64,000 nucleotides of DNA from Verrucomicrobiota bacterium (GTDB taxonomy: Bacteria > Verrucomicrobiota > Verrucomicrobiia > Limisphaerales > UBA9464), in the NCBI GenBank assembly GCA_017309115.1, contig JAFLEF010000014.1, positions 1 to 64,000 of the forward strand. The letters run 5' to 3'. Below, piece by piece: positions 29,542-45,853 of this stretch. The position numbers and the translations under genes are program-made. Under the pieces are notes generated by a model that saw only the letters and a program-made list of their open reading frames with translations, had not been told where the DNA came from and made no database searches. Each line of letters begins with the position of its first letter. Position 1 is the stretch's first letter.

Positions 29542-29994
29542 TTAAGCCTTGCCCCCTTCGAGCAAGGCCACCTTGTTCAACCGCCGCCGATGCCGGTCAG
29601 CGCCGCTGAAGACGGACTCCAAAAAGGTTTCCACCAAGTCCCAGGCCACCTCGGGTCCGATCGTCCGACCACCCATGCACAAGATGTTCATGTCATCATC
29701 CTCCACGCCCTGGCGCGCGGAGAAGTGGTCATGGATCAGGCACGCCCGAGTGCCCGGAATCTTGTTGGCACACACCGCCGCCCCCACTCCACTGCCGCAG
29801 ATCGCGATGCCCCGGTCCACGGTTCCCGAGGCCACGGATCGCGCCAAGGGAACCACGAAGTCCGGATAATCATCGTCCGACTTCAACTCCTTCGCCCCAA
29901 AGTCGGTGATCTGATGCCCGGCCTTTTTGAGCCGGGTCAGGATCTCCTGTTTGAGGGCAAAGCCGCCATGGTCCGTCGCAATTCCGACACGCAT
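29542..29994 (-). CDS. rpiB: Ribose-5-phosphate isomerase B
   Basis: The 150-residue enzyme interconverts ribose-5-phosphate and ribulose-5-phosphate. Motifs: IATDHGGFALKQEI at the start, the catalytic cysteine in GIAICGSGVGAAVCANK, and CLIHDHFSARQGVEDDDMNILCMGGR. Length is normal. It lies in the same series as zwf, gnd and pgl, where it would take over the ribulose-5-phosphate made by gnd. A second RpiB domain occurs in this window within the fusion protein at 43.7 kb. Confidence 0.93.
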   Translation of the reverse strand: MRVGIATDHGGFALKQEILTRLKKAGHQITDFGAKELKSDDDYPDFVVPLARSVASGTVDRGIAICGSGVGAAVCANKIPGTRACLIHDHFSARQGVEDDDMNILCMGGRTIGPEVAWDLVETFLESVFSGADRHRRRLNKVALLEGGKA

Positions 29995-38857: not shown

Positions 38858-39211
38858 CTAAACCAACTGGAGCAAGAACGCGGGCAGCCGCCAGGATCGC
38901 CCGGTATGTCGCAAATCCTCCACAATCCAATATCCGTCCTCCGCTCGCACGGTACGGACCCGCTCGCCCGGAGCCAATCCCTCCGGAAGAACAAACGTCT
39001 CGGACCACCGCGTGGCAATCGTCTCGCACACCTGATCGGGCTGAGTTGGGACTAGGCTCCCCATAACCGATTCGACGAGCAAAGCGCGGGCCAGAGGCGC
39101 CCGGACTTCGACCTGTCGCTGACTGTGGAGATCGGAGTTCACCTGACCCGTGCCCGCCGACAATTCGGGGCGTGCTGCCACCACCTCCGCACGTCCTGAA
39201 ATTTTTTGCAT
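38858..39211 (-). CDS. Hypothetical protein
   Basis: From the ATG at 39211 a 117-residue product can be read; its C-terminal half (RWSETFVLPEGLAPGERVRTVRAEDGYWIVEDLRHTGRSW in pieces) looks like a genuine protein, the N-terminal half less so. It is divergent from the DUF4331 gene with 48 bases between starts. No family is recognised. The long upstream extension of this frame is antisense to the DUF4331 gene and not credible. Confidence 0.45.
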   Translation of the reverse strand: MQKISGRAEVVAARPELSAGTGQVNSDLHSQRQVEVRAPLARALLVESVMGSLVPTQPDQVCETIATRWSETFVLPEGLAPGERVRTVRAEDGYWIVEDLRHTGRSWRLPAFLLQLV

Positions 39212-39259
39212 CCAGTCCTCTGCCTCGTTCGTAAACCGGTTGTTCTGACCAACGATTCC

Positions 39260-40882
39260 ATGAACACCAAAATTCTCCTCCCCCTGCTGGCTTCCGGTTT
39301 CGGCCTCTCCGTCTTCGGCTCCAGCCATCGCGAAGCTCCAGCCATAACGAGTCAGCCCAAACTCGATTGCTCGGACTACTATGCCTTCAACAGCTACGAA
39401 CCCGCTCGCGGCGACTATGTCACGCTCATCGCCAACTATTTGCCCCTCCAGGATGCCTACGGCGGGCCCAACTATTTTCAACTGGATCCCCAAGCCTTGT
39501 ACGAAATTCACGTCGATAACACTGGCGACGCCGTGGAGGACCTGACCTTCCAGTTCCGCTTTCAAAACGCCGCGCGCGACATCGCTCTCGTGATCGGCAC
39601 TGGAGACAACCGCCGGACCAATGCCATTCCTCTGCTGGCAGCGGGTCAGATCACCGCCGGCAACAATGGCGCGCTGAATGTGGATCAGACCTATACGCTC
39701 TCGGTCATTCGCGGTCCACGACGCACGGGTTCCTCCACACCAGTCCTCAATCCCGCCAACAACACGCCGAACTTCACCAAGCCTCAGGATAACGTCGGCA
39801 ACAAGACGTTCCCGGAATACACCGCTTATGCCGACCAATACATCTACGAAATCGCCCTTCCCGGCACGGACAAGAAGGGCAAGGTCTTCGTGGGCCAGCG
39901 AAAGGATCCGTTCGTGGTGAATCTGGGCGAAACCTTCGACCTCATTAACCTGAACCCGCTCGGCACGGTGGACGGCGCCAAGGATTCCCTGGCGGACAAA
40001 AACGTCACCGCACTGTGTCTGGAGCTGCCCAAGGAATTTCTCCTGGCTGGGGGCAATGGCCCGATTATCGGCACTTGGACCACCGCCAGTCGGGTGGACG
40101 GCACCACCATCACGCAGGTCTCTCGACTCGGCATGCCCTTAGTCAACGAAGTGGTCATCGGGCTGAAGCACAAGGACGTCTTCAACGCGTCCGAACCCAA
40201 GGATGACCTGCAATTCGTGGATTACATCACCCATCCCACGCTTCCGGCCCTGATTGAGATTCTGTTCCCGATCGCCAAGGCGCCCACCACGTTTCCTCGG
40301 GCGGATTTGGTCGCGGCGTTTGCCACGGGTGTGGAAGGGCTCAACAAGAACGGGTCGCTGGGCGAGATGCAGCGCTTGAACACCGCCATTCCGGCCACGC
40401 CCCGGGATTCCCAAAACAATCTGGGTGTGATCGCGGGCATCACCGGTGGCGTGCTGGATCCGGCGAAGGCTGATTTGGCCGGATTCCCCAATGGTCGCCG
40501 ACCGGGTGATGACGTCGTGGACATCGAACTCCGAGTCGCCATGGGCAAGCTGCTGACTCCTGCGGAAGCCCCGGTGGGCGACGCGCCGATCACCGATGGC
40601 GCGCTCGTCAACGCTTCGTTCTTCGCCAATCAATTCCCGTATCTGCTCGCCCCGCTGGGGGGTTCCCCGAACGATCTCAGCATCACCATTCAACCCCAGG
40701 CGGGCGCCTCGCTGAACGGACCGCTCCGTCCGGTCCCGGGCAAGTTTGATCCGGCCACCCGACGTCTGACCGTGACGGCCCCAGCGGAAGGAAGTTCGTT
40801 TCTGGGCGTGAAGGCCGATGCCAAGGTGACCTTGTCCCAACCGGCCGCCGCTGCCGGAGAACTCTCCGCCAAGGTTCAATAG
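39260..40882 (+). CDS. DUF4331 family secreted protein
   Basis: The 540-residue protein has a short signal peptide ending near FGSS and then HREAPAI, the diagnostic start of DUF4331 proteins, followed by LDCSDYYAF and repeated beta-rich segments with the family's typical 'PKDDLQFVDYITHPTLPALIEIL' region (seen here in pieces around residue 315-335). Its biochemical role is unknown. Genes of this type are found with a TPR protein and a HupE/UreJ membrane protein, exactly as here. A strong hairpin follows the stop codon. Confidence 0.9.
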   Translation: MNTKILLPLLASGFGLSVFGSSHREAPAITSQPKLDCSDYYAFNSYEPARGDYVTLIANYLPLQDAYGGPNYFQLDPQALYEIHVDNTGDAVEDLTFQFRFQNAARDIALVIGTGDNRRTNAIPLLAAGQITAGNNGALNVDQTYTLSVIRGPRRTGSSTPVLNPANNTPNFTKPQDNVGNKTFPEYTAYADQYIYEIALPGTDKKGKVFVGQRKDPFVVNLGETFDLINLNPLGTVDGAKDSLADKNVTALCLELPKEFLLAGGNGPIIGTWTTASRVDGTTITQVSRLGMPLVNEVVIGLKHKDVFNASEPKDDLQFVDYITHPTLPALIEILFPIAKAPTTFPRADLVAAFATGVEGLNKNGSLGEMQRLNTAIPATPRDSQNNLGVIAGITGGVLDPAKADLAGFPNGRRPGDDVVDIELRVAMGKLLTPAEAPVGDAPITDGALVNASFFANQFPYLLAPLGGSPNDLSITIQPQAGASLNGPLRPVPGKFDPATRRLTVTAPAEGSSFLGVKADAKVTLSQPAAAAGELSAKVQ

Positions 40883-42333: not shown

Positions 42334-43578
42334 ATGGAATCCACCCCCACCCCCGGTTCCGGCCCTTGGACGAATCCGCTGGAGCACTGCCCACGGACCC
42401 GGCGCCTTGTCCCCCGCACGGGACACCTTCGTCACTCTCTTGGTCTTTTCTTGCTGAGCTTCTGGCTGCTGAGTCTGGCCCAAGCGCACACCGCCAGCAC
42501 CGCCTACCTGCAGGTATCGGCCATGTCCGACCGGATCTCGGGCCGATTGGAGCTTCCTCTGCGAGATCTCGAGGATCGCTTCGGACTGGATACAAATGAG
42601 GACGGTCAGCTGACCTGGGGCGAGTTCCGCCGTCGCGGGGCGGAAATCGAGGCCTGGGTTCGTCGCGGCTTGGTTTGGTCCAGCGGAACCAACGCCCTGC
42701 CTTGGACGACTGCGGAGTGGCAGGTCTCCCAGCGTCAGGACGAAGGCTATGCGGTCCTGGATTTTCAGGTGAACGAAGTCGCCGAGGTGCAACTCACCTA
42801 CGGGCTTTTGTGGGACCAGGATCCCCTGCACCGCTGTCTGGTGTTCTGGAATGCCGCGTCACGTCCCGGACAGGTTCTGGCGTTGTCGCCCACGGACCGC
42901 ACCTGGTCGGTTCCGGCGCCAGGAGCCACAACTTCGGCCGGGTGGTTAACCCTCGTCCGCGAGGGGGTGCACCACATCTGGACCGGATACGACCACCTCC
43001 TGTTCCTGCTGGCGCTCCTCCTGCCGGCCGTTCTGCGGCGCACTCCGACGGGTTGGGCGCCCGTGGGTGACTTGGGGTCGGCGCTCCGAGATGTCATCAA
43101 GGTCGTTACGGCCTTCACCGTGGCGCATTCGCTCACCCTCATTCTGGTGACCCTCGGCTGGGTCAGTCTCCCCTCTCGCTGGGTCGAAGTGACCATTGCG
43201 GGCAGCATTGGAGTAGCGGCGTTCGCCAATTTTCGAGGTCGGCCCCGCCTGGGTGACTCCGGCATCCGGGAGATTCTGACGTCTCCCTGGGCGGTGGCCT
43301 TTCTGTTCGGCCTGATTCACGGGTTCGGTTTCGCCGGCGTTCTGACCGAACTGGAATTGCCGCCAGGACACCTCGCCGGCCCGCTTCTGGGGTTCAATCT
43401 GGGAGTTGAACTGGGCCAACTGGCCTGTGTTCTGGTGTTTGTACCGCTGGCGTTCGCCCTTCGTGCGACTTGGTTCTATCGGCAGGGCGTGCTCCCAGTG
43501 GGGTCGGCGCTGATTCTACTGATGGCCGCCGGGTGGGTGGTGGAGCGGAGTTTTGGTCTGGGGTTCATGCCCCTTTGA
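42334..43578 (+). CDS. HupE/UreJ-like membrane protein with EF-hand
   Basis: The 414-residue protein has a leader (hydrophobic about 37-48), an extracytoplasmic domain, and a C-terminal membrane domain of six or more helices with the HupE/UreJ_2 signature GVHHIWTGYDHLLFLLALLL and a late LIHGFGFAGVL. HupE/UreJ proteins are metal (nickel or cobalt)-related permeases, though the function of this subgroup is unknown. The extracytoplasmic part contains a canonical EF-hand loop, DTNEDGQLTWGE (about residues 86-97), suggesting calcium binding. It ends the DUF4331-TPR-HupE cassette. Confidence 0.87.
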   Translation: MESTPTPGSGPWTNPLEHCPRTRRLVPRTGHLRHSLGLFLLSFWLLSLAQAHTASTAYLQVSAMSDRISGRLELPLRDLEDRFGLDTNEDGQLTWGEFRRRGAEIEAWVRRGLVWSSGTNALPWTTAEWQVSQRQDEGYAVLDFQVNEVAEVQLTYGLLWDQDPLHRCLVFWNAASRPGQVLALSPTDRTWSVPAPGATTSAGWLTLVREGVHHIWTGYDHLLFLLALLLPAVLRRTPTGWAPVGDLGSALRDVIKVVTAFTVAHSLTLILVTLGWVSLPSRWVEVTIAGSIGVAAFANFRGRPRLGDSGIREILTSPWAVAFLFGLIHGFGFAGVLTELELPPGHLAGPLLGFNLGVELGQLACVLVFVPLAFALRATWFYRQGVLPVGSALILLMAAGWVVERSFGLGFMPL

Positions 43579-43702
43579 AGTGGCTCAAGTAACGGGTCGG
43601 CCTGACCGTGACCGTGACCGCGACGCCGACAAAATTCCGGGGCCGAGACTGATCCGTTGACGCGTGGTCGGGAGACTCACACCTTCCGCCGTCACGTTTT
43701 TG

Positions 43703-45853
43703 ATGAAGACCCTCCTCTTTGTTTGCACCGGAAACACCTGTCGCAGCCCCATGGCGGAAGCCTTGGCGCGGCAGGCGTTGGCGAACAAAAGCGGTTGGCG
43801 GGTCGTTTCGGCGGGTCTGGGCGCGGTCAATGGTCATCCACCCAGCCCACACGCGGTCAAAGCCATGCGGGCTCTGGGCGTGGATATTTCGGGACACCGC
43901 TCCCAAATGGTCACGCATCGGCTGGTCCGGGAGGCCAGTTACATTTTTGGACTCACTCATGGGCATGTCGAAGGGCTCATGTACCTTTATCCCGAGGCGG
44001 CAGAAAAAACCTTCGTTCTACGGGAGTTTGACGACACTCTGCACGCTTTCGATAAGGACATCAGCGATCCTATCGGCGGTCCGCTGGAAGGCTACCTGGC
44101 CTGCCGGGACCAGATCGAACAAGGCGTTACCACCATGTTGCAGTTTCTCGAACGTCAAGAGACTCAGTCCCGCGCCACTCTTTCCGTGGCGCTGGGTTCC
44201 GACCATGCCGGGTTTGCGCTCAAGCAGGCCCTGCTCCCCGAACTGAAGCGTCGGGGTATTGAAGTTCACGATTTGGGCACCCATTCGCCCGAATCCACCG
44301 ACTACCCGGACTACGCCCACGCCGTGGCCCATGCGGTGGCTGACGGCTCGGCCGACTTCGGGGTTCTGTGCTGCTCCACCGGGATCGGCATGAGCATGGC
44401 CGCCAACAAGGTCGAGGGAGTCCGGGCAGCCTTGGTCGTCAACGAGGAGACGGCCACCCTCACCCGGCGTCACAACGACGCCAATGTCCTCTGCCTTGGG
44501 GCCAAAACCAGCACCCCGCAGCAGGCGATCAAGATTCTCGAGGCGTTTCTCCAGGCCGAATTTGAAGGCGGCCGGCACGAACGCCGCATTCAAAAACTAG
44601 AAGACGAAGTGCATCCCGAACTCTCCCTCGAATCCGTCGATCCGGCCCTCGCCGAAATCATCCAACACGAACGGCGACGTCAGCAGGAAAACATCGAGCT
44701 GATCGCCTCCGAAAACTTCACCAGCCCGGCGGTCATGGCGGTTCAGGGAAGTGTCCTGACCAACAAGTACGCCGAAGGCTATCCGAAGAAGCGTTGGTAC
44801 GGTGGTTGTGAGTTTGTGGATGAAGCCGAACAACTGGCCATTGATCGGGCCAAGCAACTGTTCGGAGCCGAGCACGCCAACGTCCAACCGCACTCCGGTT
44901 CGGGCGCCAACATGGCAGTGTACTTCGCCCTGCTGAAGCCCGGGGACAAACTGCTGACGATGGATCTGTCTCACGGCGGCCATCTCACCCACGGCAACAA
45001 AGCCAACTTCTCCGGAAAATTCTTCGAGATCGTTCACTACGGGGTCCGCAAGGAGGACGAACGTCTGGACTACGATCAATTGGCCGCTCTGGCCCGCGAA
45101 CATCGGCCCAAAATGATCACCGTCGGCGCCTCGGCGTATCCGCGCGTGATCGACTTCCAGCGCATGAGCGAGATTGCGAAGGAAGTCGGAGCCCTGATGC
45201 TGGCCGACATCGCCCACATCGCGGGTCTGGTCGCGGCGGGAATTCATCCCAGCCCGGTGCCCTTCGCCGACTTTGTCACCACCACCACGCACAAAACCCT
45301 GCGCGGACCACGCGGTGGCTTGATTTTGTGCAAGGCGCAATACGCCAAGGCGATTGACTCCCAGGTGTTCCCGGGAATCCAGGGCGGACCGCTGATGCAC
45401 GTGATCGCGGCCAAAGCCGTCTGCTTCCACGAAGCGCTGCAGGCGGGCTTCAAGGATTACCAGCAGCAGATCGTTCACAATGCCGTGGCGTTGGCCGAGG
45501 GCATGAAGCGGAACGGATTCCGACTGGTTTCCGGCGGCACTGAGAACCACGTGATGCTCGTCGATGTGGGCGCGCGTGGCTTGACCGGCAAGCAATGTCA
45601 GCTGGCCTTGGACGAAGCCGGCATCACCACCAACAAGAACACGATTCCGTTCGAGACGCGCTCGCCGTTTGAAGCGTCAGGCGTTCGTCTGGGCACTCCA
45701 GCAGTGACCACCCGGGGCATGAAGACCGCGGAAATGGCGGCGATCGCGGACATGATCAGCGAGGTGTTGCTCGACATCAGCAATCCCGGCACGGCCCACG
45801 CCGTTCGCGAACGGGTGCGGGCGCTGACCGCGAAGTTCCCGCTGCCTTACTGA
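43703..45853 (+). CDS. Three-domain fusion: arginine-phosphatase-like, RpiB and serine hydroxymethyltransferase
   Basis: One uninterrupted 716-residue reading. Residues 1-150 are a low-molecular-weight phosphatase with CTGNTCRS (Cys8, Thr12, Arg14) and the acid DPIGG (Asp122); the Thr is the residue that gives YwlE its phosphoarginine preference. Residues 158-295 are RpiB ([11 protein letters not shown]; catalytic Cys224 in CCSTGIG). Residues 305-716 are serine hydroxymethyltransferase ([28 protein letters not shown] lysine Lys531 in [14 protein letters not shown]), making glycine and methylene-tetrahydrofolate. In Bacillus ywlE, ywlF (rpiB) and glyA are close neighbours in the same order. 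All three active sites appear intact. Confidence 0.93.

Follow-up and report, generated by a model that had tools for sequence, protein, structure and literature searches.

The three enzyme families that meet in the protein described here, and the gene cluster that holds them, are already known. The closest described counterparts of its N-terminal part are YwlE (PDB 4pic and 1zgg) and Staphylococcus aureus PtpB, which resemble it in the P-loop, the Asp-Pro loop, Thr12, and the presence of McsB in the genome; YwlE, however, is a free enzyme, whereas the LMWP described here forms one part of a chain with RpiB and serine hydroxymethyltransferase (SHMT), and most close relatives have Ile or Val instead of Thr. 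According to PMC8001253, Thr or Ile at position X5 of the P-loop decides between phosphoarginine and phosphotyrosine. Solved RpiB enzymes (PDB 3he8 and 2vvr) share the catalytic positions of the fused domain, which differs from them in being embedded between two other enzymes and in having decayed in 8 of the 97 relatives with the triple fusion. Bacterial SHMT, GlyA (PDB 3pgy and 1dfo), is matched by a complete SHMT domain with the PLP lysine kept, ∼47 to 57% identical to bacterial SHMTs in the structure-comparison listing, the difference being the two extra enzymes that the fusion bears at its N-terminus. A further phosphatase chain, PDB 4egs, which we take to come from Thermoanaerobacter tengcongensis, is a close phosphatase domain with Thr and is labeled "Ribose 5-phosphate isomerase RpiB," a label that hints at an LMWP-RpiB fusion, but the comparison covers a 180-residue phosphatase part without SHMT. 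Finally, the Bacillales cluster ywlE-rpiB-(TIGR01440)-glyA-upp contains the same three functions in the same order, with Thr at the specificity position of its phosphatase, but as separate genes and with an extra gene between rpiB and glyA.

The window, meaning the whole stretch of 64,000 nucleotides analyzed here (Verrucomicrobiota bacterium, GenBank assembly GCA_017309115.1, contig JAFLEF010000014.1), carries these three functions in a single open frame that runs from an ATG to the stop codon with zero internal stops and has a predicted product of ∼78 kDa (Table 1). This ATG coincides with the N-terminus of the LMWP domain, an alternative upstream start being a GTG at 43664. Pfam matches to LMWPc (residues 5 to 145, 2.1e-29), LacAB_rpiB (162 to 299, 2.1e-58), and SHMT (309 to 685, 5.2e-165) each span almost the entire profile, and the active-site positions assigned in the first-pass annotation of three complete domains in one frame (C8, D122, C224, and K531) were all confirmed. 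Upstream of the gene lie a DUF4331 protein (39206 to 40882, plus strand) and a HupE/UreJ-like membrane protein (42334 to 43578, plus strand), and the downstream neighbor is an MFS transporter; the flanking genes have no obvious link to the fusion. Searches of the open-licence PMC literature listed no paper that, judged by its title and the beginning of its abstract, describes the fusion chain, its breadth, a phosphatase on the only SHMT, or an RpiB decaying in place; databases of the UniProt type may list the architecture.

Table 1. Coordinates of the triple-fusion gene, its domains, and the free RpiB-like protein in the window
Feature	Position	Strand	Details
Triple-fusion gene LMWP-RpiB-SHMT	43703..45853	+	716 aa; sole SHMT gene found in genome
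YwlE-type LMWP domain, aa 1-152	43703..44158	+	Pfam LMWPc 2.1e-29; top solved match YwlE 4pic, 1e-27
Short linker, aa 153-158	44159..44176	+	Block mean pLDDT 59; <50 at aa 154-157
RpiB domain, aa 159-303	44177..44611	+	C224, H257, R291 intact; TIGR01120 180.5 bits
SHMT domain, aa 304-716	44612..45850	+	K531 and other checked residues intact; PRK00011 639.9 bits
Free RpiB-like protein, outside fusion	29545..29994	-	Cys kept; Asp at catalytic His position

The AlphaFold model was good for LMWP and RpiB and poor for SHMT at ∼300 to 370, with a pTM of 0.55 that left the domain placement open, and structure comparison gave only SHMTs because the SHMT domain fills the list. The first junction measured 31 to 45 residues between Y131 and G165, and the second 35 to 49 residues between H292 and E332. 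Regarding internal starts, the window has no ATG within the 21 codons that precede either RpiB or SHMT, its only candidate starts there being TTG and GTG. Among the 97 relatives, an ATG occurs before RpiB in 44 and before SHMT in 60, compared with 0 to 97 in fifteen control stretches, while a start codon following a Shine-Dalgarno-like tetramer occurs before RpiB in 40 of 97, close to the upper limit of the controls (4 to 42), and before SHMT in 15 of 97.

A scan of public genomes confirmed 552 candidates, the best 80 of which were examined as close relatives. In all 80 of these best 80 of 552, LMWP, RpiB, and SHMT lie in one frame, the match ending at a contig edge in two of them (L077 and L082), and four genomes consisting of one contig (G042, G072, G078, and G265) likewise carry the triple fusion. 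The first-pass annotation had pointed to a missed stop or frameshift between domains as what would undo the fusion, which the one-frame relatives contradict; the idea that three genes were artificially linked by misassembly or a frameshift, for which no evidence was found, is thus already refuted by them and of practically negligible probability. The titles of the 80 loci name Verrucomicrobia or member genera, save three given as "bacterium" and one as "Proteobacteria." Six loci titled "Akkermansia muciniphila" (L006, L010, L017, L034, L042, and L070) and the one titled "Proteobacteria" (L021) carry the triple fusion and cluster among relatives of the window, and these titles look wrong. In the genus f3 g3, presumably Akkermansia, only RpiB-SHMT is shown among the 150 phylum-sample matches listed.

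Results for the phylum as a whole, across which the first-pass annotation had proposed searching for this architecture, revealed that the fusion or its intermediate stages are widespread in Verrucomicrobiota. Matches were found in 284 of 288 genomes of the phylum sample, and among the 150 matches listed, one per genome, all span RpiB and SHMT (123 stop-free), with 39 extending into LMWP, of which 19 are stop-free and 20 contain at least one stop. Frame checks on 110 loci, including the window's own, found RpiB and SHMT joined in all 110 and all three domains joined in 98. Over 140 loci, composed of the best matches and a further 30 loci drawn from 44 genomes (41 of these outside the 150 listed), the corresponding numbers were 126 and 99, proportions that are not population frequencies, given the choice of loci. 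Of the other loci among the 140, 15 join RpiB to SHMT and have LMWP nearby as a gene of its own, while 12 show the same two-domain fusion with no LMWP in the locus (for part of the loci this means not within ∼1.5 kb on each side). In 6, LMWP is separate and RpiB was not found, one of these (L129) being a triple fusion that is broken, and in 4 (L130 and L136 to L138) LMWP is joined to SHMT without RpiB, with the genome G036 as a fifth case. The rest comprised neither (2), RpiB separate only (1), and all three separate (1), the three separate genes adjoining one another at L133. G134 looks like LMWP-SHMT and was left out of that count, and in G149 and G102 a stop stands between RpiB and SHMT, so that the apparent open frames of 586 and 589 aa are misleading there. 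At L129 (G152:C1, ∼689,010 to 689,040), in a pMMO-bearing genome, the gene is broken in frame inside a degraded RpiB domain into pieces of 267 aa and 465 aa, which reflects either a sequencing error or a real split.

A 111-row SHMT tree requires 11 changes to account for the architecture states, 8 of them for the triple fusion. The RpiB-SHMT fusion is present on both sides of the root, which was placed at the midpoint and not inferred, suggesting that this was the oldest step. Such frequent change would agree with a neutral operon fusion, in which stops between cotranscribed genes were lost several times and the link itself is unselected, as would the 9 of 110 loci in which LMWP shares the frame but is followed by a stop that immediately precedes the RpiB-SHMT frame, the stops in 20 of the 39 LMWP-reaching rows among the 150 matches listed, and the retention of a degraded RpiB domain. 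We consider this neutral account unlikely, since the triple fusion is kept in every one of the best 80 of 552 and the sole SHMT in 44 genomes is always the fused one.

Outside the phylum, the Priestia plasmid NZ_CP140268 carries an arginine-phosphatase gene, rpiB, a TIGR01440 gene, glyA, and upp in succession, and the Paenibacillus plasmid NZ_CP054613 shows the order ywlE-rpiB-glyA with an unannotated open reading frame between rpiB and glyA. In Sphingomonas, the gap from rpiB to glyA is 18 bases, while in Niveispirillum the two genes share one frame with a single stop between them. This pattern of adjoining genes in Priestia, Sphingomonas, and Niveispirillum indicates that the fusion grew from an old gene neighborhood, and the operon origin suggested by the first-pass annotation is borne out by the Priestia plasmid cluster; the Bacillus order ywlE-ywlF-glyA that it quoted was right but omitted the fourth gene, seen in Priestia, between rpiB and glyA.

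The SHMT domain exceeds its family cutoff (NCBIfam PRK00011, 639.9 versus 335 bits). Lys531, the PLP lysine, is present in all 97 triple-fusion relatives, in all of which most of the checked SHMT residues are kept; S398 and H424 vary, and R662 is missing in one of the 97 rows, that row ending at a contig edge. In each of the 44 genomes searched, the fused SHMT is the only one over the cutoff (three genomes hold a further match under it), and the fusion protein must therefore supply SHMT activity. The reading that we prefer, with a probability of roughly 0.58, is that the protein would be a coexpressed and colocalized housekeeping multienzyme with three separate activities, derived from an ancestral ywlE-rpiB-glyA operon.

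The fused RpiB domain lies above the rpiB equivalog cutoff (TIGR01120, 180.5 versus 138.65 bits), and all three of C224, H257, and R291 are present in the window's copy; by analogy with Escherichia coli RpiB, we take C224 and H257 to be catalytic and R291 to belong to the phosphate site. Each of the three is kept in 79 of the 80 close relatives (best 80 of 552), while in the 17 other triple fusions C224 and H257 are kept in 11 and R291 in 12. At least one has been lost in 8 of the 97 triple fusions, where the domain nevertheless stays in the fusion: L104 to L106, L092, and L101 are without all three, L093 and L063 are without Cys and His, and L081 has lost R291 and several other positions with C224 and H257 kept. 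On the tree, these losses need three changes, and loss of Cys224 two. Given these eight degraded domains, isomerase activity cannot be the general reason for the fusion. Five genomes of family f4 within the degraded-RpiB set carry ammonia/methane monooxygenase genes, and the family is for this reason probably Methylacidiphilaceae; no such genes were found in the L101 (family f9) or L081 genomes.

RpiA was found in none of the 44 fusion genomes by a search that finds it in 8 of 14 control genomes, and the fused RpiB is the only RpiB in 19 of the 44, although 15 of these 19 are without a completeness figure. All seven degraded-RpiB genomes searched (the L063 genome lies outside the 44 searched for RpiA, RpiB, and SHMT) carry a separate high-scoring RpiB of 175 to 194 bits, judged by score alone. 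A second RpiB occurs in 18 of the 37 remaining genomes, giving a Fisher P value of 0.014 against the seven of seven when kinship is ignored; after correction for kinship, with two independent pairs only, the association is not significant. The free RpiB of the window scores under the rpiB equivalog cutoff (113.6 versus 138.65 bits) and over that of the broader RpiB subfamily (171.4 versus 135 bits), and in the alignments an Asp takes the place of His257. The first-pass annotation had concluded from this free protein that the fused RpiB was dispensable and free for other work, which is not supported, given the absence of RpiA, the sole RpiB in 19 of 44 genomes, and a free RpiB at 29.5 kb that has no catalytic His and falls under the equivalog cutoff.

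Turning to the phosphatase, the window has the P-loop C8-TGN-T12-C13-R14-S15 and the acid loop D122-P123, in agreement with the C-X4-C-R-S/T and Asp-Pro motifs of the family, and C8, C13, R14, S15, D122, and P123 are found in all 97 triple-fusion relatives where readable (D122 in 97 of 97 and C8 in 96 of 97, one row being cut). The top solved match of the window's LMWP is YwlE 4pic (100.1 bits), followed by 4egs (88.4 bits) and other phosphatase types at no more than 60.1 bits; an Ile-type homologue matches 4egs best (101.6 bits), then YwlE (96.0 bits), with other phosphatases at no more than 64.9 bits. An identity as ArsC of the thioredoxin type was rejected, the domain scoring 62.4 and 69.0 bits against cutoffs of 174.3 and 215 bits. 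Two other LMWPs of the window genome (L003 and L004, at G000:C45 and C47) are ArsC-like, with the P-loop CTGNSCRS and scores under the ArsC cutoff, making the fused domain the only YwlE-type enzyme in that genome; both apparently lie in arsenic gene clusters.

The window carries Thr12 at the specificity position, where the 79 readable of the best 80 of 552 show Ile in 36, Val in 25, Thr in 17, and Leu in 1, and Thr occurs in 2 of the 17 other triple fusions. Within the window's order, the Thr-bearing lineages make up a basal grade of the tree, and Ile and Val are nested inside it. As most close relatives carry Ile or Val in place of Thr, the phosphatase substrate may differ between clades. McsB is present in the window genome (G000:C20; L114, 94354 to 97884), where, by eye, it follows an McsA-like gene with a UVR motif and precedes a ClpC-like gene start; 92 of the other 97 fusion genomes have it too, two as partial matches. 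An aminotransferase-like gene was also seen by eye upstream in this locus, an arginine-kinase system in a Gram-negative genome. No link of the Thr marker with McsB presence was found; being nearly everywhere, McsB does not explain which specificity residue occurs. Of 53 genomes, 6 have no LMWP besides the one attached to SHMT, and all 6 of these have McsB. G036 (915,884 bases) has an LMWP-SHMT with Thr as its only LMWP and McsB (6.1e-119) beside McsA-like and ClpC-like genes. Thus, the name "arginine phosphatase" given in the first-pass annotation is plausible for the window, where YwlE 4pic is the best match, Thr12 is present, and McsB is in the genome, and is weaker as a property of the fusion, with Thr in 17 of 79 readable close relatives.

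The attachment of a YwlE-type phosphatase to SHMT in genomes that nearly all have McsB raises the question of a regulatory hub, in which SHMT would be controlled by the arginine phosphatase or by a sugar phosphate occupying RpiB, or the phosphatase would shield SHMT from being marked by McsB and degraded through ClpC. Such a role would be in line with the phosphatase site being intact even where RpiB is degraded, with the joining of LMWP to SHMT in five loci without RpiB, and, according to PMC8024496, with the rise of mcsB and a clp unfoldase gene on formic acid in Methylacidiphilum. No regulatory motif or shared site was seen in the fusion, however, the Thr marker is not conserved, and the 12 of 140 loci with RpiB-SHMT but without LMWP in the locus mean that SHMT works without it, all of which makes this hub quite unlikely. 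The first-pass annotation had proposed that SHMT or one-carbon flow is regulated by phosphoarginine or a sugar phosphate, for which no evidence was found in this analysis.

Another role for the LMWP would be that of the missing phosphoserine phosphatase, handing serine to SHMT, at least in the Ile/Val-type clades. Canonical SerB is scarce, passing the cutoff in 7 of 53 genomes, although this cutoff is strict and reached by only 7 of 14 controls; among 48 genomes on the tree, SerB occurs in 6 of 13 with Thr and 1 of 35 others, an association that is not significant when corrected for kinship (5 pairs). Two reports describe similar gaps, SerB and SerC being reported absent from a verrucomicrobial methanotroph bin (PMC8170126) and SerB being a gap in 450 gut genomes (PMC9026213). 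Searches of G036 with E. coli queries gave no match to SerA, SerB, or RpiA (positive control AroA, 5.9e-51) and a single weak match to SerC (4.6e-4, 14.7 bits), for which the query was the E. coli type only and would miss other aminotransferases, yet this genome keeps LMWP-SHMT. Moreover, other phosphatases may act as SerB, and the domain is closest to YwlE. This serine-feeding role is highly improbable, and phosphoserine phosphatase as a general role of the LMWP is unsupported by the G036 genome and by the tree.

Returning to the housekeeping multienzyme that we favor, the genes of a ywlE-rpiB-glyA operon would have been joined into one multifunctional enzyme with SHMT as its core and the cell's only source of that activity. 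RpiB, which is the domain found fused to SHMT most widely across the phylum, would interconvert ribose and ribulose 5-phosphate in the window's clade, and the N-terminal YwlE-type phosphatase would dephosphorylate proteins, its substrate in that clade most likely being phosphoarginine placed by McsB. The three sites would work separately on short flexible linkers, and the benefit of fusion may be that enzymes feeding nucleotide and one-carbon metabolism are held at a fixed ratio, expressed together, and kept in one place, with the phosphatase, as the counterpart of McsB, tied to an oligomer. A more daring and very doubtful extension would have Gram-negative arginine phosphorylation wired to one-carbon metabolism: the only YwlE-type phosphatase, built into the only SHMT, would keep the enzyme and its partners free of McsB marks, stress on the complex (e.g., oxidation of C8/C13) would release the ClpC pathway, and RpiB, degraded in the methanotroph-like family and two single lineages, would serve as a scaffold.

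The locus thus presents a conserved fusion of three enzymes on a single-copy enzyme, and the stages by which it was assembled can still be seen. One protein makes testable both the role of arginine phosphorylation in bacteria other than Firmicutes and whether a functional link underlies the recurring ywlE-rpiB-glyA neighborhood, and the relatives in which an enzyme domain decayed in place yet stayed in the fusion provide a natural experiment.
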